From positions 1 to 64,000 of the forward strand of contig JAKAJS010000083.1 of NCBI GenBank assembly GCA_021813685.1: a DNA stretch of 64,000 nucleotides. The letters are read 5' to 3'. How positions within the stretch are numbered: position 1 is the stretch's first letter; every line of letters begins with the position of its first letter. Source of the stretch: Deltaproteobacteria bacterium (GTDB lineage Bacteria > Desulfobacterota > Syntrophobacteria > Syntrophobacterales > Syntrophobacteraceae). The notes under the pieces were generated by a model. The model made no database searches. It saw only the letters and a list, made by a program, of their open reading frames with translations, and was not told where the DNA came from. Of the stretch, positions 33,812-48,035 are shown in pieces. The position numbers and the translations under genes were made by a program.

Positions 33812-33893
33812 TGGTTGAGACCACCGGGATGCCACGGACGCCCGTTTCCACACTGCATCTCCTGAGGGATACCCAGTGGATCGAGACCATGGA
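33812..33893 (+). repeat. Dispersed repeat, copy 2
   Basis: GTTGAGACCACCGGGATGCCACGGACGCCCGTTTCCACACTGCATCTCCTGAGGGATACCCAGTGGATCGAGACCATGG. Confidence 0.75.
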
Positions 33894-34007
33894 GGATCCC
33901 TCAGCCAAATTGTGAAATCGGATTTTGACAAGATCAGTCTTTTAGCTATATTGGAATTAACAGTGGTAAAATATGACCAAACAACCAAGCGGAGCCGGAG
34001 AGAGCGC

Positions 34008-34232
34008 ATGGAGATCAAACTGACTGCCGTCTTTCGGAAAGTAACGGAAGGCTACATAGGGTTTGTGGAAGAATTACCGGGGGCCAACACACAGGGAGCT
34101 ACACTCGAGGAAACACGAGAAAACTTGCGAGAGGCCATCCAATTGATGCTAGAAGCCAATCGCCTGCTTTCGGAGGAATCTCTTTCCGGGCAAGAGGTCA
34201 TTCGCGAACTGTTGGTGAACTGCGCGGCATGA
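34008..34232 (+). CDS. hicB: HicB-family antitoxin
   Basis: MEIKLTAVFRKVTEGYIGFVEELPGANTQGATLEETRENLREAIQLMLEANR; overlaps HicA. Confidence 0.9.
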   Translation: MEIKLTAVFRKVTEGYIGFVEELPGANTQGATLEETRENLREAIQLMLEANRLLSEESLSGQEVIRELLVNCAA

Positions 34233-34414
34233 AACGCCGTGACCTAATTCGACTCTTGGAAACTCACGGCTGCAGATTGCTGCGTGAAGGCAGCAATCAT
34301 TCTGTGTATTTCAATCCCGCAAAAAGCAAAATATCGACGGTGCCCAGGCACCGCGAAATCAATGAGGACCTTGCCCGAAAGATTTGCCGCGATCTGGACA
34401 TCCCGCCAACTTGA
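34229..34414 (+). CDS. hicA: HicA-family toxin (mRNA interferase)
   Basis: MKRRDLIRLLETHGCRLLREGSNHSVYFNPAKSKISTVPRHREINEDLARKICRDLDI. Confidence 0.92.
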   Translation: MKRRDLIRLLETHGCRLLREGSNHSVYFNPAKSKISTVPRHREINEDLARKICRDLDIPPT

Positions 34415-34536: not shown

Positions 34537-34620
34537 TCCCGATCACAGAGGATGCCCTGGGGGTCGAGTGTGGAAACGGGCGCCTGCGCAATCCTACGTG
34601 GTCTCAGTCATGGAGCATCT
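34537..34620 (-). repeat. Dispersed repeat, copy 3 (inverted)
   Basis: Reverse complement reads ctccatGACTGAGACCACgtaggattgcgcaGGCGCCCGTTTCCACACTCGACCCCCaggg. Confidence 0.7.
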
Positions 34621-35030
34621 CTCGGAGGTCGGGATGGAGTGCGCCTTTCACACGCCTCGCAGGATCGCCTGTTCCACGGCCAAGTACGGCCAGTGCACCG
34701 ACCGGGCTCACCTCGGCATTCCGGGCGGCTGTCTCCGGAGCCTAGGGCGAAAAGCGTGTCTCCATCATACTGAGTGTGGGCCGGATAGACGATTCTTGCC
34801 AGCCCGTCATGGGCCATTCGGACTACCGTGGTCAATTGCACCTTGTTTAAGGAGGCATTGGTCGCGGCGACCGTGTTTTGATTCGGGAAGCCCATCTGGA
34901 AACCGGTCCTTTTCCGGAGTGCGGGTATGGTATCGATCGGGTCGCTCTGCCCCGGCGACCTTGATACCCGTAGCCGGGTCGTATACTTCCCCGAATGCGT
35001 TTACGACTATCAACGGCCCCACGGCTTCAT
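34621..35030 (-). pseudogene. Partial degraded copy of the P1/DmpA (S58) peptidase gene
   Basis: Fragments LIVVNAFGEVYDPATGIKVAGA and NQNTVAATNASLNKVQLTTVVRMAHDGLARIVYPAHTQYDGDTLFAL match the intact gene at 46279-47277. Confidence 0.88.
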
Positions 35031-35167
35031 CCGTTCGACGCTCCTCACGGAAGAACTTCGAAAATAGGGGTAAAATTGCTATTACGGCCGACAATGCCGA
35101 CGAACTTGACATTCAAGACAGTTGCTCAGGATCGGAGTTGCTTTTTAAGTTGGATCGAACCGGTAAA

Positions 35168-35638: not shown

Positions 35639-36058
35639 TTATCGCAAAAAGTCGATTTTGCGGATTGCGTCGATGGGGCTTCTCAGCCGGTCCGAATCGA
35701 TGGGGTCGGCATAACCGCCCACCGAAACGATATAACAGCCTCCGCCCCCATTGTCGAAAAAAAGCCGCATGCTGTCGTAGAGATAATAGGTGCTGGTGAA
35801 GGTCGAGCTGAGGAAATCGTTGTTTTCACCCAGCAGTACTTTGGACACGCTTATGTCCGGACCTTGACCGAAATAAAACTCGTAATCAAGCAACGACTTG
35901 ACCTTGGTGGGAACCTGCAACAAGTCGTTGTCGGAGAGTTTGGTTGCCCTTGCCGTATAGCCGATGAAGGCCGGAATGGCCGTTTCCACCTCGGCCACTG
36001 AAGGTGGGAAAAGCGAAATCTCTTCTACGTAGACGTCCGGGGTCTTGTAGGTCGCCAT
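35639..36058 (-). pseudogene. Phage-tail-like / eCIS contractile sheath protein, N-terminal fragment
   Basis: MATYKTPDVYVEEISLFPPSVAEVETAIPAFIGYTARA...: sheath N-terminus, only 139 aa, far shorter than usual sheaths. Confidence 0.82.
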
Positions 36059-36070
36059 CGTTCAAATCCC

Positions 36071-37074
36071 TTATGGTTTCGAAAGGTGAATAATGATGTT
36101 TCCATTGACCCTGTTCGAACCGACCTGAGGCAGGTTCGGGATGATGACTTCGCCATTCGTGCTCAGCTGGATTTTCTTCCGGGCCTTTTCACGGCGGGGC
36201 ACAAGGCCCTGCGACTTGAAGAGCACCACCCTGGCACTGGCCGAACCCAGCGGCGCCGGGGGGATGTCTTCGCCTTCGAGGTCCTCGGAATTTATCCGCG
36301 TGAAAAACAGTTGAGGCCGCAAGTCCTCCTGGAATCCTGCGTCGTCGACGACGAACCGGGCGACGTCCGCATCGTTGTAATTCTCGGCCACCTCAAGATC
36401 TCCGATCTGGACTGGAAGACAATTTGTAACGCCGCGGGGGCACCGACAAAAGCGTCGTCAATGACAATTTCCACAATGCCGAACGCGCCTGCCCGAGGGA
36501 GTTCGGGGTCGGAATAATAGGAGACTTCGGCCGATTCGCTCCAATATTCTTCTTCCACCAGGTAGGCCCCCGGACCACTGCCGGTGAGATCGTACACAAT
36601 CGAGTCGCCGCCTGCGGTCGCGGTAAGGGTATCCATCTTGAGTATGTTTCCCGCGGCGTCCCTGAGCGTCAGTGTCACGGGGCGGGCGGCTCCGGTGGGT
36701 GTGTGACGGAGCGATGTTCCTACCATTACCGATGTGGCGGTTCTGTCCAGCTTGCGGACGTCGGCGGTATTGCGGTAAAGAGGGAAAGTCCGGCCTAAAT
36801 CGAAATCCAGCTCAGTGAAGTTTCCAAAATATGGATTCAGAAGAATCAATCCGATCCGCAGCTTCGAGCCGGCGAGGGGGACCCGCGGGGCACCCGTTCC
36901 ATCCGACTCGTAAAAAACGTAAAGCACGCCTTCCATCACCTTGGCGACCATCCTGCCGTCCGCCAGGGTCCTTTTTGTGTCCAAAGGAAAAAAGAAATCG
37001 AAGTCCTGTCCTCCATTGCCGTGGAAGGCATGTGAAATGGCAACACTAAAAAGGATTGGAAACTCCGTCGTCAT
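36071..37074 (-). pseudogene. eCIS/tail-associated hypothetical protein, single frameshift
   Basis: ORFs 36292-37074 and 36071-36391 join as ...VIDDAFVGAPA/(G)VTNCLPVQIGDLEVAENYNDADVARFVVDD...; shift lies near a C5/G5 run at about 36430-36440. Confidence 0.65.
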
Positions 37075-37640
37075 CGGCTTTGCAGACTGCTCTTTATGAT
37101 GGTGAGCGGTGGTTGTACTGCTGTTTGGGCCTCATCCTGCACGGCGACCATCCTCATGCGGTAGACCACGGAGGGCAAATGCTCGCCCCCGATAAAAGTC
37201 CAGACCTGGTTTAGCTGCTCATAATTCAGGGACTGCAATTCTACGACGAGCTTTTCGATCCGCGGGTCAAGAGCAGGGTACTGTTCGGAAGAAAAGTAGG
37301 GGTGAGACTGAAAAAAGGTCAGAATTAAGGAGAGGTATTTTAACGCCACATCATATTGTTTGAAGTTGGCCGCAAACATGACATAAAGATTGAGCTTCAA
37401 ACGAGGTTCCAATACCACGTGCTGACCGTTAGTATAAGTGTATTCGGGAAGCTGGGACATGAGGGTACGTTCTTCTTCGATATTGATGAGGCACGCACCA
37501 ATGGTTTCTGAATCGAACGCGTACTTGCCGGTTTCATCGGCAATCTTGCTGGGCTTCACATCCACGGATTCAGTTCCGGTCCGTGCAAGCATGTAGGACT
37601 TCAATTCATTTCTGAGAAACTGAAGGGCTACGTCCAGCAT
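37071..37640 (-). CDS. DUF4255 / Pvc16-family protein (putative tail terminator of eCIS)
   Basis: MLDVALQFLRNELKSYMLART...NIEEERTLMSQ...LEPRLKLNLYVMFAANFKQYDVALKYLSLILTFFQSHPYFS. Confidence 0.88.
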   Translation of the reverse strand: MLDVALQFLRNELKSYMLARTGTESVDVKPSKIADETGKYAFDSETIGACLINIEEERTLMSQLPEYTYTNGQHVVLEPRLKLNLYVMFAANFKQYDVALKYLSLILTFFQSHPYFSSEQYPALDPRIEKLVVELQSLNYEQLNQVWTFIGGEHLPSVVYRMRMVAVQDEAQTAVQPPLTIIKSSLQSR

Positions 37641-38231: not shown

Positions 38232-40190
38232 GTGGCACTCAAACCCTTTGAATATATTGTCGGGGACCTCAAAATCAAGCTTCTTCCTGCAAATGATGTC
38301 ATTGCAGTTCGATTTCGCGAGCCTGCGCTGTATTCCGTCAGGGAACAGGCAGCCATGAATGCCCCGGTAGAGCCCTTCGAAACGAGGTTTGAAGTTCCGG
38401 GTGAGAAGTTCACGGTCTTCCGGGTCTCGGATGCCCATCCTGCTGCGGCCGCCGCGGATCAATTGCAGACGAATCCGGATGTGGCACGCACGGCGCCTGT
38501 GTTCGAGCTGAAGAGCAAGCGGGTCATCGCAACGGATCGCGTTCTCGTGAAGCTGAAGGACACCAGTCCTGAGCACATGAGCACGCTGCGACAGACGGGG
38601 ACGGGAATCACGGGAGTATCCGACAAGGAATTCGTGCTCCAGCTCAGCGAAGACCAGGACCCGCTCGAAATTTCGATTCAGCTCGCAAAGCTGGATTGGA
38701 TCGACTATGCGGAACCCGATTTTGTGACGATCGGTAAGTACCCGCATACCGGAATGGACGCTCCGGGGCTGCAAGCATTGAGTGCCGCAGATCCTGATTA
38801 TGCCTTCAAGATCACAGAGTGCGACAAGGCCTGGATGATTCAGCGTGGCGACCCGGCGATTCGAATTGCCATGCTCGACGACGGGGTCGATCTGCAGCAC
38901 ATAGATCTTGCCGGCGCCATTGTTGCTGCCTACGATGCTGTTCTTGATGCGCCTTTGAGTGCGCCGAATCAGTGGGACGGGCATGGCACTGCGTGTGCCG
39001 GCCTGGCGGCTGGGACGCATACGGCGCCGCTTGGCGTCAGGGGAATGGGGTGCGGGTGCTCGCTGCTGGCGGTGCGCATCGCCTCATCGCCTTATGCCAA
39101 TGGGCCGTGGGTCACCTCGAGTTCTTATATCCGGCGCGGCATCGATTGGGCCGTAGACCACGACGCCGCGGTGATCAGCAACAGTTGGGGGGGCGGTGCG
39201 CCTTCCAATGCTGTTGCTGATAGCTTTGATCGGGCGCGGAGCGTCGGTAGATCCGGCAGGGGGTGCGTGCTGGTGGTCGCTGCCGGCAACGAGGGCGGCC
39301 CGGTTGAGTTTCCCGCAAATGTTCCCGGAGTTCTTGCTGTTTCAGGGACCAACGAGTTTGACGAATTCAAGAATCCTTTCAGTCGTGATCAGGAGACCTG
39401 GTGGGGATCCAATTACGGGCCGGAAGTCGATGTCGCGGCACCCGCCGTGCACATCCGCACTACCGACATCACCGGTAGTGGCGGTATGTCACCGGGGGAC
39501 TACGCTCAGGCATTCAACGGCACATCGGCAGCCACCCCTCTGGTGGCCGGTCTTGCGGGCCTTGTGCTCTCTGCCGATAGTTCGCTGACGGAGATTGGAG
39601 TTCGAGAAGTTATTTGCTCGACCGCCGATAAAGTTGGACAGTATCCGTACACGAACGGCCGTAACGACGAACTCGGCTTCGGTAGGATCAACGCGCTGCG
39701 TGCAGTCCAGGTCGCGCTTGGCACCCCTGCGCAAAATGAAACGAACCTGCCGCCGGTCGAGCAGACCAACCAGGAGACCGGTACGGGAAACGAGCTTGCA
39801 GGGACAGTGCGGGCTGTCGGTGGTGGCACTCCCAGAGCGGGCGCATTCTATCTGGATCAGGATGGAAAAGCGTCGTATCTGCTCAAAACATTTACGGGTG
39901 ATGATCAGACCGCTCTCGCCTCCCTTGAACAACAGAGCCTTGCTACTCTTAGCGGTTTCGAAGGCAAGCTTGTCCGAGTGCGGTACGCTGAGATGGAAAA
40001 CACTCCTTATGGCTCGATCATCTGGGGCGTACAGATCGAGTTGGCGGATTCAGGAGACGATCAAGCAATCCCGCCAAATGAAATTCGAATGGGCTATGTC
40101 GAATCGGGACACTCCAAAGCCACGGGTTCAGGCGATTTCGGGATTCCTGACAATGAAGTCCGTTTACCTTTTGTCGACGTTTTCAATTGA
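38232..40190 (+). CDS. S8 family (subtilisin-like) serine peptidase without an evident signal peptide
   Basis: Asp IAMLDDGVDLQH, His WDGHGTACAGLAAG, Asn VVAAGNEGG, Ser FNGTSAATPLVAGLAGL; GTG start with GAAAGGGG upstream. Confidence 0.9.
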   Translation: MALKPFEYIVGDLKIKLLPANDVIAVRFREPALYSVREQAAMNAPVEPFETRFEVPGEKFTVFRVSDAHPAAAAADQLQTNPDVARTAPVFELKSKRVIATDRVLVKLKDTSPEHMSTLRQTGTGITGVSDKEFVLQLSEDQDPLEISIQLAKLDWIDYAEPDFVTIGKYPHTGMDAPGLQALSAADPDYAFKITECDKAWMIQRGDPAIRIAMLDDGVDLQHIDLAGAIVAAYDAVLDAPLSAPNQWDGHGTACAGLAAGTHTAPLGVRGMGCGCSLLAVRIASSPYANGPWVTSSSYIRRGIDWAVDHDAAVISNSWGGGAPSNAVADSFDRARSVGRSGRGCVLVVAAGNEGGPVEFPANVPGVLAVSGTNEFDEFKNPFSRDQETWWGSNYGPEVDVAAPAVHIRTTDITGSGGMSPGDYAQAFNGTSAATPLVAGLAGLVLSADSSLTEIGVREVICSTADKVGQYPYTNGRNDELGFGRINALRAVQVALGTPAQNETNLPPVEQTNQETGTGNELAGTVRAVGGGTPRAGAFYLDQDGKASYLLKTFTGDDQTALASLEQQSLATLSGFEGKLVRVRYAEMENTPYGSIIWGVQIELADSGDDQAIPPNEIRMGYVESGHSKATGSGDFGIPDNEVRLPFVDVFN

Positions 40191-40355
40191 AATAAGTTGT
40201 CGGAAATTTGCCCGGGAGCATTCAACCAACTTACATGTGACTTTGCCAGCGATGACCGGCATTCGCATTTTGGATTTATGAGTGTGCTAAGGGATGGAAA
40301 TACGATCCATCGGTCAACACTTCCAATTCTCTTTTTCCACTATAAGGAGGCTAAA

Positions 40356-40760
40356 ATGCCCGACCAAAAAGATCTAAAACTTGTAATAGCCAATTCGATT
40401 CAAGATCTTAAGAGTGTCCGACTTCCAGGATTAGACAAGTCGTTCGACAAATTGACTATCGGGGAACTGGTACAGTTGCGGCCGGGCTCATCTGTTGCAG
40501 ACACCTATGATGTTCAGGCCGTAACCGATAATGCCAGCGTAAATACCAGTTCGAAACTGGCACAACTCGGCAGGATTCAAGCAATTCGATCCATGCAAAA
40601 GGTGGTTCAGCAGTCGCAGTTGAACGAACTGAAAACCCATCTGATGCCGGGAGGTGCCGGAGGCCTTGGGTCTATGAGCGCAGGCCCAAGTCCTCAATCC
40701 GTGGAGATGCCCGCAGAAGACGTCTTCAGTGCGGGCGATTCCGATCCGTTTAAGGCCTAA
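40356..40760 (+). CDS. 134-aa hypothetical protein, candidate peptide/protein substrate of adjacent radical SAM enzymes
   Basis: RBS aaggagg; MPDQKDLKLVIANSIQDLKSVRLPGLDKSFDKLTIGELVQLRPGSSVADTYDVQ...MPGGAGGLGSMSAGPSPQSVEMPAEDVFSAGDSDPFKA; no Cys. Confidence 0.75.
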   Translation: MPDQKDLKLVIANSIQDLKSVRLPGLDKSFDKLTIGELVQLRPGSSVADTYDVQAVTDNASVNTSSKLAQLGRIQAIRSMQKVVQQSQLNELKTHLMPGGAGGLGSMSAGPSPQSVEMPAEDVFSAGDSDPFKA

Positions 40761-40769
40761 ACGATCCTT

Positions 40770-41807
40770 ATGTTTTCCGTGGGCTATACCCTCACGGGAG
40801 AAGCGCTGACTGCTCTCCAGCGACAGGGCACAAAGCATATAGCCTTCAGTGTCACTGACGCGTGTCCGGTGAGGTGTTCGCACTGCATCGTCTCGGCCAC
40901 CCCGCCGGGGAGTGCCACGATCTCGATGGGGGCGGAACGAGCTCGGGCATACGCGTCACAGTTCGGCCGCCTCGAAGAGATGGGAGTCGAGAGAATCAGC
41001 TTCACGGGGGGCGAGCCTCTGCTGGCTCCCCGCATCCTGAAACTTCTATCCGAGGCTGCGGATTTGGCGGGTATTGAGTCTACGGTAGTGACAGGGTGCC
41101 ACTGGTGTGGCAGCGCGGAAACAGCGACTGCTGTTGTGCGTTGCCTGCCTCATATCGGCACCTGGCACTTGTCGGCGGATCGTTTTCATCAGGCGGCTGT
41201 TCCTTTATCCAATGTCATCCTCGCGGCGCGGGCAGCAGTCGATTCCAACCGATCCGTACTAATAAGAATGGCGGTGATGCTTCCACTCTCGAGTGCTGAT
41301 GCGGACTTCTATGAGGAACTTCGCAACACATTGCCCGTCGGCATTGAGATATTGGTGCAGCCCGTTACGGCATCCGGGCGCGCGGAACGGCTTGAGGTGA
41401 ATACCCCCACGGGCAGGTCGAAGAATATGCCGTGTATGTCGGGCGGCATGATGATTCGCGCGGACGGTTCGATAAGTCCTTGCTGTGCCGCATTGGTCGC
41501 GGAGCCGAAGGATCATCCGTTTCATTTCGGCTCGGCGGAACGTGACGGTTTGGCGGGCGTCTACGATGCCTGGCGGCGCGATACGTTGCTGCGCCTCATC
41601 CAGTGTGTGGGATTCGCTCCGGTGCTTCGATGGGTCGCCGAGGATGCGGCGGACCACCCTATCCTGCAGGCGATCCCGGACCATGCGTGCGACGTTTGCA
41701 CCGCCCTGTGGCGGCGGCCCGGGACTGCGGAACTTGTCCGTATTCGTTGTCAGCCGGCTGCGGTTCGGCAGAAGGTGGATGAACTGTATGAGACAGTCTT
41801 TGGATGA
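40770..41807 (+). CDS. Radical SAM protein (paralog 1)
   Basis: CPVRCSHC (CX3CX2C), FTGGEPLLAP, GGMMIRADGSISPCC. Confidence 0.9.
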   Translation: MFSVGYTLTGEALTALQRQGTKHIAFSVTDACPVRCSHCIVSATPPGSATISMGAERARAYASQFGRLEEMGVERISFTGGEPLLAPRILKLLSEAADLAGIESTVVTGCHWCGSAETATAVVRCLPHIGTWHLSADRFHQAAVPLSNVILAARAAVDSNRSVLIRMAVMLPLSSADADFYEELRNTLPVGIEILVQPVTASGRAERLEVNTPTGRSKNMPCMSGGMMIRADGSISPCCAALVAEPKDHPFHFGSAERDGLAGVYDAWRRDTLLRLIQCVGFAPVLRWVAEDAADHPILQAIPDHACDVCTALWRRPGTAELVRIRCQPAAVRQKVDELYETVFG

Positions 41808-42984
41808 AAAGGTACTGCCTTTGGGCAAGCCGGTGATAAAACTACCCGATCGTTCAGTCAAACTCACGTTGGCTGAACTCGCGTTCGTACAGTCGATTGC
41901 CACGTGCCATATTGCTTTCAGTGTCACCTTGGCCTGTGCTCTCCGATGCGCGCACTGCATTGTCCGAGCGGGTCCAGACAAAGCATTCACGACGATGAGC
42001 GTCGATACGGCTCGGCACTACGCTCGGCAGATGAAAGATCTGGCCGAGCACGGAATAACCAATATCAGCTGTACGGGGGGGGAGCCTCTGCTCGCTCCGA
42101 AGCAGGTCGGCATATTGGTCGATGCCGCTGCCGAGCAGGGCATTTCATCCGGCATCGTGACATCAGCCTACTGGGCTCGCAGGCCGGAGAGCGCGCGACG
42201 CGTGATCAAGCGTTTCCGCGCCATTAAAGAATGGGACATATCCGTCGACGCCTTCCACCAGGAATTTGTAAGTCTTGATACGATTCAAAACGCGTATCAA
42301 GCTGTAAAAGATGCCGGGCACCGTGTAACCGTCCGATTTACGCATTCAGATCCGCCCTCCGCCGCTGATATTCAAATTCTCGAGTTCATCACGACTCTGG
42401 AGGACGCCAATTTTACATCCCAGCAGGTAAGAGGATTGGGACGTGGCGCTGATTTGGGGGTTGCCTGCTCGCATACCGGCAACCGATGGATGAAGCCGTG
42501 CCTCACACAAGGGATGGTGATCCGCTATGATGGATCAATCGCCCCGTGCTGCCTCAATCTCATCGAAGAAAGGCAGCATCCGTTTCAATTCGGCGATGCC
42601 GCCGCGCAGCCCCTGTGTAAGATCCACGATGCATATCTCAGCTTTCCCTTATTGCAGTTGATCCGGGCCATCGGTTTTTCCGAATGCTGGCGCTGGATCG
42701 GGGAAGAAGGGCTGCGATCGCGGCTGCCGGCCGATCTGCCGCATGACGCGTGCGATTTTTGCTCCCTTATAATGCGAGATCCGGTGGTGTCTGCGTGTCT
42801 CACTCGCAAAACTTCCGATCCTGACATGCGATTGAAAATTGCCGTTGCAGTAAAGCGCATACTTGGCGAAACGGTGATGTTGTCTTCTGTGTTGAACGAA
42901 CTTGCGGATTGCGCGGACCGGATACAAGGATTCGAAGAGGCTAAAGCCTGTCTCGCCGCTCCGGCCGGCAACTCCGCTTCATAG
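41788..42984 (+). CDS. Radical SAM protein (paralog 2)
   Basis: CALRCAHC (CX3CX2C), CTGGEPLLAP, GMVIRYDGSIAPCC; overlaps paralog 1 by 20 nt. Confidence 0.9.
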   Translation: MRQSLDEKVLPLGKPVIKLPDRSVKLTLAELAFVQSIATCHIAFSVTLACALRCAHCIVRAGPDKAFTTMSVDTARHYARQMKDLAEHGITNISCTGGEPLLAPKQVGILVDAAAEQGISSGIVTSAYWARRPESARRVIKRFRAIKEWDISVDAFHQEFVSLDTIQNAYQAVKDAGHRVTVRFTHSDPPSAADIQILEFITTLEDANFTSQQVRGLGRGADLGVACSHTGNRWMKPCLTQGMVIRYDGSIAPCCLNLIEERQHPFQFGDAAAQPLCKIHDAYLSFPLLQLIRAIGFSECWRWIGEEGLRSRLPADLPHDACDFCSLIMRDPVVSACLTRKTSDPDMRLKIAVAVKRILGETVMLSSVLNELADCADRIQGFEEAKACLAAPAGNSAS

Positions 42985-42992
42985 GAAGTGCG

Positions 42993-44954
42993 ATGGCCCA
43001 GCCCCCCAAAGTCGTTTTGCTCACCATGCCGTGGACGACAACCATTCAGCCTTCGCTCGCGGTTGGCATTCTTATCGCGATCTGCGCGGAGGAATCCGTT
43101 CCCGCGGTCAGTCTCTATCCGAATATGGACATGACTGCGATGCTCGGATTTGAGGCCGCGGGCGACCTGGCGGTCAACCGCAATTTGTACGGGCTTTCCG
43201 AGCATCTCTTCGCCTGCGATCTGTTCGGCAGAGAAGAGCTTTGCAGCGACGAATACATAGAAACGCTGGCGCAGGACGATTTGCCCAAGCGCTTCAAGGA
43301 TGCCGCATTCGTGCGGCATATTCGTGACGAGGTCGTCCCCGCGTTCCTGGACGGGACCACCCGGCGAGTGCTCGCGCAGGAGCCTTCCGTGGTCGGTTTT
43401 TCCGCCACATTCAATCAGATCATGTCCGGTCTCAGTCTGGCACGGCGGCTGAAGAAGGTGCGGCCCGACCTCCCCATCATCGTGGGAGGAGCCTCTTATG
43501 ACGGCGAAATGGGCTTGGAGTATCAACGCGCCCTGCCGGACCTGCTCGATCATGTCTTCATCGGAGAAGCGGACGATTCATTCCGAGAATATTTGGCGCG
43601 ACATGTGGCTGGGCAGCCAACGACGGGGATCGCGGGGGTCGCCTGGTTTGCCGAGGAGCGGGTGCAGTTCGCTCCCGCGCGGCCGCTGACCGATCTGAAT
43701 CGTAGTCCGAGGCCCAATTATGATGGCTTTTTCGCCGAGAAAGAGCGTCTGTTTCGGGAAACGGGACTGGTTTTCAATATAGAGTCGCTTCCGTTCGAGA
43801 GTTCGCGCGGCTGCTGGTGGGGATACAAAAATCACTGTCTTTTCTGCGGACAGAATGAAACATCGATGGCATTTCGAGAGAAGGACCCGGACAGGGTCAT
43901 CTCTGAAATTGTGTATCTCTCCGCGCGTTATCGCGTGCTGTCGCTGCACGCGTCGGACTGGATCATATCCAGGAAATCGCGGGCGGAATTATGCCGGAAG
44001 CTCCGAGATCTCGATCTCGACTTGGGATACTTTTACGAGACCCGCTCTGATCTGCGCAAGGAGGAGGTTGCCTTGCTGCGCGATGCGGGAGTCCTCAAGA
44101 TCCAGCCGGGAATCGAATCATTCTCCACAGAGTTGCTCCAGCTCATGAACAAGGGCACCACGCGGATCCGGCAGGTGCAGTTCATGCGATGGTGCAAGGA
44201 GTATCAAATCCACTGCGGCTATAACATTCTCTCGGGTTTTCCCGGCGAGAAAGCCGAATGGTATCGCGAAATGGCGGCATTCCTCCCTCGAATCATTCAT
44301 CTTCAGCCGCCCCGCTACAACACGCACGAGATTGAAATGCACCGCTTCAGCCCGCTGTTCGAACGGCGGGACGAACTTGGTGTCAATCAGTGGCGTATTC
44401 GCGAGGACTACGGTTTCAACTTTCCCCGGGGATTTATCGACTTGGATCGCATCGGTTACTTTTTCAGCTACGACTGCGCAGGCGTACGGCTGGAGGAGGG
44501 ATATATGGAGGATCTCCGCGTACCCATCCAGCAATGGATCGATGCGCACGAGGAAAAGAAGCCTCCAGTCTACAACTATTCTCTCGGCCCGGGATTCCTG
44601 CGTATTACGGATACCCGCCAACGGGAGGCTCGCTATCTTTATCTTGCAGATTTGGACCATGACGTTTTTCTGCTTTGCGATCACGTTCAGACTCTGAGCA
44701 GCCTGAAGGAATTGCTGACGCCCCGCTACCCTGCGGAAGTTGCTTCCGGGGCGCTGGAGAGCACGGTGGAGCGGATGGTGCGCGAAGACATCCTCATGCA
44801 GGAAGGAGACGCAATACTCGCGCTGCCGATTGCCCTTCACCCGCGCACAACAGCGCAACTGTATTCTTACGTCCTGGGAGATTCCTGCAAGAAGGCTCCA
44901 GCCTCCCAGCCGACCCTTGCCAAGGCCATCGATGATGTGCCACCATTGATATAG
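42993..44954 (+). CDS. B12-binding-domain radical SAM protein, RiPP-maturation C-methyltransferase-like
   Basis: N-terminal MPWTTTIQPSLAVGIL; IIVGGASYDGEMGLEYQRALPDLLDHVFIGEAD; SSRGCWWGYKNHCLFCGQNETSMAFREKDPDRV resembles the RiPP maturation radical SAM 1 (TIGR03975-like) family. Confidence 0.82.
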   Translation: MAQPPKVVLLTMPWTTTIQPSLAVGILIAICAEESVPAVSLYPNMDMTAMLGFEAAGDLAVNRNLYGLSEHLFACDLFGREELCSDEYIETLAQDDLPKRFKDAAFVRHIRDEVVPAFLDGTTRRVLAQEPSVVGFSATFNQIMSGLSLARRLKKVRPDLPIIVGGASYDGEMGLEYQRALPDLLDHVFIGEADDSFREYLARHVAGQPTTGIAGVAWFAEERVQFAPARPLTDLNRSPRPNYDGFFAEKERLFRETGLVFNIESLPFESSRGCWWGYKNHCLFCGQNETSMAFREKDPDRVISEIVYLSARYRVLSLHASDWIISRKSRAELCRKLRDLDLDLGYFYETRSDLRKEEVALLRDAGVLKIQPGIESFSTELLQLMNKGTTRIRQVQFMRWCKEYQIHCGYNILSGFPGEKAEWYREMAAFLPRIIHLQPPRYNTHEIEMHRFSPLFERRDELGVNQWRIREDYGFNFPRGFIDLDRIGYFFSYDCAGVRLEEGYMEDLRVPIQQWIDAHEEKKPPVYNYSLGPGFLRITDTRQREARYLYLADLDHDVFLLCDHVQTLSSLKELLTPRYPAEVASGALESTVERMVREDILMQEGDAILALPIALHPRTTAQLYSYVLGDSCKKAPASQPTLAKAIDDVPPLI

Positions 44955-44957
44955 ATT

Positions 44958-46202
44958 ATGAATCTGCAGACCCGTTTACACCAACTCGCCCGATTGCGGG
45001 ATGTGCTCGGTTCGGGCAACCAGTCCTCAGTTCGGGAATTCGCTGAAGCCGTCGACCGGGCAGGTGACCCCGCACTTGCTCTCACCGCCCGTTTTATGTC
45101 TGCTGCACAGTGCCGCGACTCAGGCAGGCTCAAGGCAATTATCGAATCCGGGGGTGTGGATCTGATCAGATCTGACGCGGCCCTTCACTACGCACTTGTG
45201 GTGTCTCTGTGCTGGACGATCGGATTGGATGGAGCGCGCGCCGAAATTATCCGTCTCTCGGGGCAGGACTTGGGCGCGCTGCCCGCCGACTGGCGAGCCA
45301 ATGCAAGCCACCTCCTCGGATTTGTCCGCCTGCTGGGTGACTGCGCTGCGCAGATTACGTGCGAGGGCGAATCTCAGGCAGACTTCCTCCAGGACCAGCC
45401 AATTCCGGTAATTCGGGCCTCCGTGAATGGACAGCCGGAAGCGCTGTTTATTGTGGATACGGGAGCGCCCACCACTGTCCTGGACCGACAATATGCGATA
45501 GCCTCCGGCGTCAGGTTCGATATGGACAACCCTAAGATCGCGCAGGACGGCGCAGGGAACCGCATACCGCTCTATCCTGCCGTCCTCGACTGCCTCAAGG
45601 TCGCTCGTGCCGTCGCGCAGCATTGCCCCGTTCACGTGATGGACTTCGGCGATCGCATGCACGTACAGGGTATTCTTTCTCCACTCGACAGCTTCAGTGG
45701 CCTGCTGATTGAGTTTGATTTTATCAATCATTTACTCCGAATGGCGCCGGCTGAGCAGTTCCCGGAATGGGAGGGCGTAGCTGGACCAGGTATCTCATCA
45801 CAAAACCTCATTTGGAACGAGGGGAGTCCGAGCGTCCCTGTACGGCTTCTGTCTCGAATAGAAGCCAAGTTTCTCGTGGATACCGGAGCAGGCGCAAACA
45901 TTATCTGCTTCGAACTGGCACGCGAGCTTGGTTTAAAACCCAACAGTCAAGGTGTCGTGAAGGGTCCGACAGCGGCAGGTGAGATGCCCGTATATCCATT
46001 GGTTTCGGGTGAACTTGCAATTGCGGACTCCTGTGAAGTCGCTGTGCCTTTCATGGTGAACGAATGCCCTGAAACAGTTGTCAGAGTATTTCCACGAATG
46101 AAGGACGGCTATCTCGGAGTGCCCTGGTTTCAAGGGCGCCGGGTCACTTTTAGTCCCGATGCACGCACAATGTTTTTCACTCCTCGAATTTCGCTGTCGT
46201 GA
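44958..46202 (+). CDS. Retropepsin-like aspartic protease with two DTG motifs
   Basis: ALFIVDTGAPTTVL and AKFLVDTGAGANII in one chain; N-terminal helical region. Confidence 0.8.
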   Translation: MNLQTRLHQLARLRDVLGSGNQSSVREFAEAVDRAGDPALALTARFMSAAQCRDSGRLKAIIESGGVDLIRSDAALHYALVVSLCWTIGLDGARAEIIRLSGQDLGALPADWRANASHLLGFVRLLGDCAAQITCEGESQADFLQDQPIPVIRASVNGQPEALFIVDTGAPTTVLDRQYAIASGVRFDMDNPKIAQDGAGNRIPLYPAVLDCLKVARAVAQHCPVHVMDFGDRMHVQGILSPLDSFSGLLIEFDFINHLLRMAPAEQFPEWEGVAGPGISSQNLIWNEGSPSVPVRLLSRIEAKFLVDTGAGANIICFELARELGLKPNSQGVVKGPTAAGEMPVYPLVSGELAIADSCEVAVPFMVNECPETVVRVFPRMKDGYLGVPWFQGRRVTFSPDARTMFFTPRISLS

Positions 46203-46278: not shown

Positions 46279-47277
46279 TCATGCGGTCAATTTCGGGATA
46301 CGGGGCTGCTGCGGCTCGCCGCCCCCCGGTATCCCCGGGATGGAGTTCGCCTTGCACACACCCCGCAGGATCGCCTGTTCCACGGCCAGGACGGCGAGAG
46401 CTCCTACCAGGCTCACTTCGGCATGAACGACGCCTCCGCAGCTAAGGGCGAAAAGCGTGTCTCCGTCATACTGGGTGTGGGTGGGAAAGACGGTTCTTGC
46501 AAGCCCGTCGTGGGCCATCCGGGCTACCGTGGTCAATTGCACCTTGTTCAGGGAGGCATTGGTCGCGACCACCCCGACGACGGTGTTTTGATTGGAGAAT
46601 CCCGTCTGGAAGCCGGTCATTTTCTTAAGTGTGGGTATGGTATCGACCGGTTCGTTCTCTCCGGGGAGGCTCCTTGCTCCGGCGACCTTGATGCCCGTAG
46701 CAGGGTCGTATACTTCCCCGAATGCGTTTACGACTATCAGCGCCCCCACTTTCAGCCCCGCCGCTCCGCTCACCAGGCTGCTTCCCACGCCCGCCTTGAC
46801 ATGCCGTTCGAACCCGAAAAGCTTTGCCACCGTCGCCCCGCTTCCCGCCCCCACGCTGCCTTCTGCAACGGGCTGCGATGAGGCCCTCGCGCAGGCCTCG
46901 CGGGCAAGTCGGGCGCCGGGATAGATGCCGGTATTGTTTACGCCCAGATCGAAAATGATGGCGCCTGCTACGATGGGCACAACCCCGTGGCCGGTGGAAA
47001 ACCCCTCGTTTCGCTCTTTTAGAAATTCCCGCACCCCGTCTGCTGCGCTCAACCCGAAGGCGCTTCCGCCGGAAAAGAAAAGAGCGTTGACCCTGTCGAC
47101 CAGGTTTACGGGGTTAAGGGTATCGGTGCCATGGGTGCCGGGCGCCCCCCCTCGAATGTCGACCCCTGCCACAGCACCCCCCTCGGGTAAAATCACGGTG
47201 CACCCGCTGGGGATTCCCTCCATCTGCGCATGGCCCACCCGTATTCCTTCTATGGCCGTGATCGTGTCGTTTCCCAT
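46279..47277 (-). CDS. P1/DmpA-family (S58) peptidase
   Basis: ITAIEGIRVGHAQ...GGSAFGLSAADGVREFLKE...PVAEGSVGAGSGATVAKLFG...VVNAFGEVYDP. Confidence 0.9.
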   Translation of the reverse strand: MGNDTITAIEGIRVGHAQMEGIPSGCTVILPEGGAVAGVDIRGGAPGTHGTDTLNPVNLVDRVNALFFSGGSAFGLSAADGVREFLKERNEGFSTGHGVVPIVAGAIIFDLGVNNTGIYPGARLAREACARASSQPVAEGSVGAGSGATVAKLFGFERHVKAGVGSSLVSGAAGLKVGALIVVNAFGEVYDPATGIKVAGARSLPGENEPVDTIPTLKKMTGFQTGFSNQNTVVGVVATNASLNKVQLTTVARMAHDGLARTVFPTHTQYDGDTLFALSCGGVVHAEVSLVGALAVLAVEQAILRGVCKANSIPGIPGGGEPQQPRIPKLTA

Positions 47278-47279
47278 CG

Positions 47280-48035
47280 TCACCCCTCCTTGAAATGCTC
47301 CAGCAGGTAGCGGTAGATCTCCTTGCCTATTTCCATCCCGTTTTCGACGATCTCGGGGCCGAATTGCCTGCCGGTAGGGGTCCGGAAGGTTTCGATGATG
47401 CTGGCCGCTCCCGACATCCCCCAGGGAAATTTTTCGATCAGCTCCTGCGGGCCGATTCCCTGGTAGTCCATGATATGCCAGAGCATGTGGGTGAAGATGT
47501 CCGCACCCCAGCGGAACTTGTCCGCGTCGTAGAGACAGTCGCTTACCAGTTGCGCCCACTGCCGTCCTGAGGGCGTCGGGGGGGCGAAGGCTTCGTGGTT
47601 TCTAATGGCCTCGCTCACACAGGAGATTTCCTCCCCACTTAGCGAAAAGCCGCATAGAAGGCTTTTCGCCTTTTCTGCTCCCCTCTGTGCGTGGTTTTGC
47701 TCTTCCCGGCTGATATCGTGCAGAAGGCCGCAATAGGTGCCGAGCACCATGAGCCGCTCGATTTCCGGGGGATCCAGGTGGTTTCCCTCCGTTTCGATAT
47801 GAATGAGGGCCGCGCAGTCGATGCTCACACGTGTGCTGTGGAACAGGCCGTGGCCAAGGGCTTCGTTGTAGATGGGTTCGACGATCCCGCGCAACCGCAC
47901 GGCCCCCGGGTGGTTGTAGAAAAGCCTTTTCGCCAGGGCGAGCGGGGCCTTGAACCGCGTGTAAAACCCGGGCAGCGCGTGCTTTGAAGCTATCCTTTGC
48001 GCTTCCTGCTGCAGTTTGCAGGCAATTTCGTTCAT
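47280..48035 (-). CDS. HD-domain phosphohydrolase
   Basis: HSTRVSIDCAALIHIE, YCGLLHDISREEQNHAQRGAEKAK, IRNHEA. Confidence 0.88.
   Translation of the reverse strand: MNEIACKLQQEAQRIASKHALPGFYTRFKAPLALAKRLFYNHPGAVRLRGIVEPIYNEALGHGLFHSTRVSIDCAALIHIETEGNHLDPPEIERLMVLGTYCGLLHDISREEQNHAQRGAEKAKSLLCGFSLSGEEISCVSEAIRNHEAFAPPTPSGRQWAQLVSDCLYDADKFRWGADIFTHMLWHIMDYQGIGPQELIEKFPWGMSGAASIIETFRTPTGRQFGPEIVENGMEIGKEIYRYLLEHFKEG

Follow-up and report, generated by a model that had tools for sequence, protein, structure and literature searches.

A six-gene locus of probable peptide-modifying function that combines twin EpeE-like radical SAM enzymes with a PoyC-type C-methyltransferase in a Syntrophobacteraceae bacterium

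The DNA analysed here (the window) is the 64,000-nucleotide stretch from position 1 to 64,000 of contig JAKAJS010000083.1 (assembly GCA_021813685.1), which derives from a deltaproteobacterium of the family Syntrophobacteraceae. Between positions 38232 and 46202 it carries six genes, coding for a subtilase, a 134-residue protein, two similar radical S-adenosylmethionine (SAM) enzymes, a B12-binding radical SAM enzyme and a retropepsin-like aspartic protease. It is very probable that this locus is a peptide-modifying cluster, and epimerisation plus C-methylation is its probable chemistry. On balance we favour a biosynthetic operon for a ribosomally synthesised and post-translationally modified peptide (RiPP), in which the 134-residue protein would be epimerised, C-methylated and then cut by both proteases. 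An initial annotation of this DNA had proposed a peptide-modification system of some kind; that proposal is largely supported and can now be made more specific, with epipeptide-type epimerase homologues and a PoyC-type C-methyltransferase as the modifying enzymes. The six genes are:

38232..40190, forward strand: S8 subtilase, 652 residues, GTG start (PF00082, E 1.4e-40)
40356..40760, forward strand: 134-residue orphan protein, candidate precursor (ribosome-binding site TAAGGAGG and composition; matches no family)
40770..41807, forward strand: EpeE/YydG-like radical SAM enzyme 1 (twin 1), 345 residues (CX3CX2C at 32, Cys238-Cys239, CxxC at 307)
41788..42984, forward strand: EpeE/YydG-like radical SAM enzyme 2 (twin 2), 398 residues (CX3CX2C at 50, Cys254-Cys255, CxxC at 322)
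42993..44954, forward strand: predicted B12-binding radical SAM C-methyltransferase, TIGR03975 (PoyC-type), 653 residues (CX7CX2C at 274)
44958..46202, forward strand: single-chain tandem retropepsin-like aspartic protease, 414 residues (PF13650/PF13975, two stretches each; DTG at 167 and 308)

All six open reading frames (ORFs) proved to be intact, co-directional and open where the initial annotation had put them, and the spacings of 9, -20, 8 and 3 nucleotides (nt) among the last five genes follow from their coordinates. The strong ribosome-binding site reported ahead of the 134-residue ORF is likewise present (TAAGGAGG), and twin 1 begins 9 nt after that ORF. No small ORF hidden in the gaps has a convincing ribosome-binding site and is better than the 134-residue ORF. 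As read from the translations, every enzyme of the block retains its catalytic motif, so the block itself is not decayed, though its upstream surroundings are. Scans for promoters and terminators gave nothing above shuffled background, and no terminator- or promoter-like site was seen between the S8 gene and the rest.

Judged by sequence, the B12-binding enzyme, which had been described as resembling RiPP C-methyltransferases, belongs fully to TIGR03975, a family of RiPP C-methyltransferases, scoring 512.4 bits against a cut-off of 281.85 (E 1.6e-153) and covering model positions 1-606 of 606. It contains a radical SAM domain (PF04055, 54.2 bits) and a B12-binding match just below threshold (PF02310, 29.4 bits; cut-off 32.1). 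At residue 274 it has the motif CX7CX2C, as does PoyC. Among such enzymes, only PoyC, a C-beta-methyltransferase that acts on Ile and Val, has been reported to have this motif (PMC11285071). Family and motif together point to peptide C-methylation by the predicted B12 methyltransferase.

The two radical SAM proteins are indeed paralogues, with 37% identity across 339 residues. Both match Radical_SAM (E 2e-10 and 3e-12) and SPASM, and their nearest NCBIfam model is TIGR04078, the YydG/EpeE peptide epimerase. A profile (A1) was built from the twins and ten of their relatives, using window and fetched-locus sequences only, with no EpeE among them; it matched the EpeE chains in the PDB over their full length with an E value of 5e-46, the next family being MoaA at 5e-11. 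Twin 2 was modelled in AlphaFold on this profile (pLDDT 82), and in Foldseek the model's top matches were all EpeE (TM score 0.79-0.80, normalised on EpeE), followed by SkfB at 0.47. The role proposed for EpeE Cys223 is to give a hydrogen back to the radical at C-alpha, which yields D residues from Val and Ile (PMC8326336; PMC5682303). We located this site through the PDB chain of the EpeE C223A mutant, which reads PCA in place of PCC; the donor is thus the second Cys of PCC, and in the profile alignment its equivalents, Cys239 in twin 1 and Cys255 in twin 2, are both kept. Single-sequence alignments had placed a Gly at the donor position, a reading that was ruled out by the profile alignment with the C223A chain, in which this Gly falls at the site of EpeE Asp210. 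Both twins also retain the CX3CX2C motif, the C-terminal CxxC and the second-cluster cysteines of EpeE. By fold and by sequence alike, the twins are members of the EpeE/YydG peptide-epimerase superfamily, with the catalytic set kept, and fold and catalytic residues suggest, by analogy, that they would be epimerases. A scan of a collection of genome contigs with twin 2 yielded relatives that were all distant, none of them above 33% identity.

Database searches with hidden Markov models and inspection of motifs agree with the earlier assignment of an S8 peptidase and a double-DTG, retropepsin-like protease. The subtilase consists of a prodomain-like N-terminal region, a catalytic domain at about 197-510, a small C-terminal domain and a tail, in whose translation a near-repeat occurs in two copies, IPPNEIRMGYVE and IPDNEVRLPFVD. 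It belongs to the Peptidase S8 family and has the Asp, His and Ser motifs (DDG, HGT at 251, GTS at 430). Its closest solved structure is mirolase (E 6.5e-31); against the cyanobactin protease PatA it scores 54 bits, far from the cut-off of 421, and it is nearer to mycosin- and mirolase-type subtilases than to PatA/PatG. The aspartic protease is retropepsin-like, matching Asp_protease_2 (E 3.9e-21) in two stretches with DTG at 167 and 308. Similarity between its two halves reaches E 7e-6, and its N-terminal region of about 140 residues matches no family. By inspection, no signal peptide is evident in either protease. Relatives of the tandem retropepsin were absent at E 1e-8 from 395 genomes of the phylum, and in open-access papers we found no precedent for a peptide-maturation operon with an aspartic protease of the retropepsin type.

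TIGR03975 occurs in 74 of these 395 genomes and falls into two score groups, one above 575 bits and a commoner, housekeeping-looking one of 300-400 bits; the window's copy (512 bits) aligns best with the former. Three genomes of this first group (G080, G381 and G133) have an S8 protease no more than 10 kb from TIGR03975, compared to an expectation of 0.06 (P about 4e-5, given 11 S8 domains in 11 first-group genomes, the window's genome excluded). At two of the three loci, proline-rich repeats occur in a protein of their own; at the third, the protease carries them in its tail. At locus L086, the S8 protease adjoining TIGR03975 bears proline-rich repeats (RPIDPIRPIGPIRRPIEPIRR) in its own C-terminal tail, while at L083, L087 and L133 separate repeat proteins lie beside TIGR03975. 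An S8 protease is present at three of these four loci, where the repeat proteins or tails, possibly a substrate class of their own, are:

L083:11487-12533, reverse strand: proline-rich repeats of type RPPIRPPVRPP
L087:10340-11368, forward strand: proline-rich repeats of type ARPPAYFRPP
L086:10889-12610, reverse strand: proline-rich repeats of type RPIEPIRRPI, in the protease tail
L133:6084-6716, reverse strand: proline-rich repeats of type RVEARPKxP

Full-length EpeE-like genes are present in 14 of the 395 genomes. Apart from the window, G324 (locus L088) is the sole case in which a small protein, an EpeE-like enzyme and TIGR03975 are encoded in the same order, followed there by a second B12-radical SAM enzyme; chance adjacency is expected at about 0.003. 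The small protein of L088 weakly matches the NHLP leader (E 0.001; 18.9 bits, cut-off 50.9). The pairings of S8 protease with TIGR03975 and of EpeE-like enzyme with TIGR03975 are the main support for one shared peptide pathway. They are supporting rather than decisive, since few cases are involved and the P values were calculated only once the pattern had been noticed.

Some further loci contain relatives of these enzymes. In a genome of the same genus, L030:5933-10227 (forward strand) has in a row a B12-radical SAM gene, a gene whose product repeats FRPPPEPAH several times, a small ORF rich in Val and Ile, and an EpeE-like gene, and is a candidate for another modified-peptide locus. At L036:8211-13052 (reverse strand, G082), three tandem EpeE-like radical SAM genes adjoin a B12-radical SAM gene. 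An unannotated TIGR03975-like gene on a Paracoccus denitrificans megaplasmid (L106:8983-10857, forward strand) encodes a protein 35% identical to the window's enzyme; tblastn found no relatives of the other window proteins beside it.

The 134-residue protein has helices, predicted at low confidence, followed by a Gly/Ser/Pro-rich acidic tail, and Cys is absent. A single-sequence AlphaFold model (pLDDT 54) was too poor for use. Small Val/Ile-rich ORFs lie directly upstream of the EpeE-like genes in L030 and L169, and the 134-residue ORF sits where these ORFs, and the leader-like one of L088, sit. This position makes a precursor role for the 134-residue protein somewhat probable. Comparison of the protein with the small proteins upstream of the EpeE-like genes of L030, L088 and L169 found no homology.

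The twins being EpeE-like and the B12 enzyme being a TIGR03975 member with the PoyC motif, the chemistry looks polytheonamide-like, with an epipeptide-type epimerase. In the pathway that we favour, the 134-residue protein would be the substrate, mostly leader, with a short stretch as core. The EpeE-like enzymes, to judge from their fold and kept residues, would abstract C-alpha hydrogens via a SAM radical, and hydrogen would be returned from Cys239 or Cys255, so that selected L residues, by analogy Val and Ile, would become D residues; with two such enzymes, the modification sites may be divided between them. The TIGR03975 enzyme, going by family and motif, would methylate unreactive side-chain carbons using methylcobalamin and SAM. 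Finally, the subtilase and the tandem retropepsin would remove the leader or trim the product in the cytoplasm. Modification followed by proteolysis of a ribosomal product had been suggested in the initial annotation; the enzyme families and the recurring pairs speak for it, while the choice of the 134-residue protein as substrate finds neither a homologue nor a leader family behind it.

A number of observations weigh against this pathway, and several of them bear on alternatives. With TIGR04078 the twins score 58.7 and 55.2 bits, against a curated cut-off of 300, and the position of EpeE Asp210 is Gly in both, so that their reaction could differ from that of EpeE. Family membership is accepted for the B12 enzyme and both proteases only; the twins are EpeE-like but fail the curated cut-off. 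Instead of epimerising, they might introduce cross-links of the thioether or carbon-carbon type, or their substrate might not be a peptide at all; in either case the B12 enzyme would methylate that same product. SkfB, the second-best fold, is a RiPP maturase of another kind, and relatives of the twins occur in clusters without a recognised small peptide, for example beside polyprenyl-synthetase-like genes (L031, L032). However, the Cys223 equivalent is present in both twins, the match to EpeE is full-length and the 134-residue protein offers no Cys for thioether formation. We consider this explanation unlikely.

Among the same adverse observations, the 134-residue protein matches no entry of Pfam, NCBIfam or PHROGs, does not match the NHLP leader even at E 5 and has no homologue in plasmids and only chance matches in the 395 genomes. 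Three weak matches (E 6e-4 to 6e-3; L115-L117) were spurious frames and not real genes. Its C-terminal 37 residues contain two Val only and no Ile, and its Val-containing stretches lie nearer the middle, at about 47-62. If the protein is the substrate, the core may lie away from the extreme C-terminus, since the tail is poor in the Val and Ile targeted by EpeE and PoyC. Alternatively, the same enzymes could modify the subtilase's own C-terminal tail, which would be released by self-cleavage or by the retropepsin, leaving the orphan 134-residue protein an accessory role in recognition or as a chaperone. A protease-borne substrate is a real possibility because one S8 protease beside TIGR03975, that of L086, carries repeats in its tail; the repeat proteins of L083, L087 and L133 and the near-repeat of the window's own subtilase fit the same explanation. 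Yet this near-repeat has just two short copies and is not rich in proline, the S8 gene alone of the six lacks close spacing to the others, and at L088 a leader-like small protein stands ahead of the same two enzymes. Modification of the subtilase tail is, on this evidence, rather unlikely, and the 134-residue protein remains our preferred substrate.

The S8 gene and the 134-residue gene are 165 nt apart, a further adverse point, and membership of the subtilase in the operon is unproven for that reason. The genes could have been juxtaposed by chance in a degraded island, in which case the subtilase would go with the eroded contractile-injection genes that lie upstream, and only the other five genes, with their close spacing, would make up a unit. 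Decay is evident next door. The remnants, of an extracellular contractile injection system (35639-37640, reverse strand), comprise a Pvc16_N protein, the only such match in the window's genome, an ORF that is split, and an N-terminus that resembles a sheath protein, by inspection only, and breaks off at 139 residues; this truncated gene and the split ORFs occupy 35639-37074, and a PHROGs search of the remnants gave no match. An intact S58 (DmpA-like) peptidase gene lies downstream of the block at 46279-47559, and a broken copy of its 3' part, 80-93% identical in pieces, lies on the opposite side at 34608-35112. A chance origin is opposed by the three other genomes in which TIGR03975 again has an S8 protease beside it, and by the intact state and shared direction of all six genes; we regard such an origin as improbable. 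A HicB-like/HicA toxin-antitoxin pair (33876-34414, forward strand; HicA PF07927, E 1.7e-12) is also found in the eroded upstream stretch. On the downstream side, the backbone (S58 peptidase, next gene, flavodiiron protein and on) is conserved without the block in the genus genomes examined. The six-gene block looks like acquired DNA.

Lastly, to the adverse side belong the lack of an exporter or immunity gene within the cluster and the distribution of the genes. Neighbourhood analysis, which the initial annotation had named as a check on co-occurrence, did not find the full six-gene set in the 395 phylum genomes or in 56 genomes of the class; its pairs do recur. A lack of co-occurrence elsewhere, which by the initial annotation would refute the proposal, therefore holds for the complete set but is contradicted by the pairs. 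Ten other genomes of the genus lack the gene set as well as relatives of the B12 methyltransferase at E 1e-50, and they contain one remote relative only of twin 2 (G003, 26% identity).

Known systems share some of these features. Like the window, the polytheonamide/proteusin pathway combines radical epimerisation, by PoyD, with B12-dependent C-methylation, by PoyB and PoyC, and the CX7CX2C motif of PoyC is common to both. The window's epimerase candidates, however, are of the two-cluster EpeE type and do not qualify as PoyD-type, and EpeE-type epimerases have no significant homology with proteusin epimerases (PMC8326336). The 134-residue protein also lacks an NHLP leader, no dehydratase or N-methyltransferase is seen at the locus, and its two proteases are of other classes. 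With the epipeptide (epe/yyd) system of Firmicutes, the twins have in common the epimerase fold, CX3CX2C, the hydrogen-donor Cys and the second-cluster cysteines. The epe cluster comprises an ABC transporter, a membrane protease and the short EpeX. In contrast, the window has neither such transporter nor such protease, a 134-residue protein in place of EpeX, an epimerase-like gene that is duplicated and far below the YydG cut-off, and an added C-methyltransferase; no ABC transporter or C39 peptidase occurs in the cluster or among the neighbour genes scanned. The TIGR03975 loci of G080, G381 and G133 resemble the window in their S8 neighbour, but their likely substrates are proline-rich repeats, and the EpeE-like pair and the retropepsin are absent there. 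Cyanobactin clusters, with PatA/PatG, also place an S8 protease in a RiPP setting; no YcaO/PatE or other cyanobactin partner is present among the window's neighbour genes scanned. By the features tested, the cluster fits neither the proteusins nor the epipeptide systems. That the locus had not been recognised as a known RiPP class agrees with our finding no described system with this enzyme combination in open-access papers, by which its absence is not proven.

Each of the enzyme types is known; in the collections searched, neither their combination nor the presumed precursor peptide turned up a second time. We tentatively raise the possibility of a new RiPP class, in which epipeptide-type epimerases and a PoyC-type methyltransferase would act on an unusually long orphan precursor, released by a cytoplasmic subtilase and a tandem retropepsin. 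Polytheonamide-type peptides depend on both D residues and C-methylated residues. If our reading is true, the locus would represent a second enzyme set, of independent assembly, that introduces both, achieving polytheonamide-like chemistry with an unrelated epimerase and offering new biocatalysts. It would also place a retropepsin-type aspartic protease within a peptide-maturation operon, and would test whether the core or the enzyme dictates the choice of sites.

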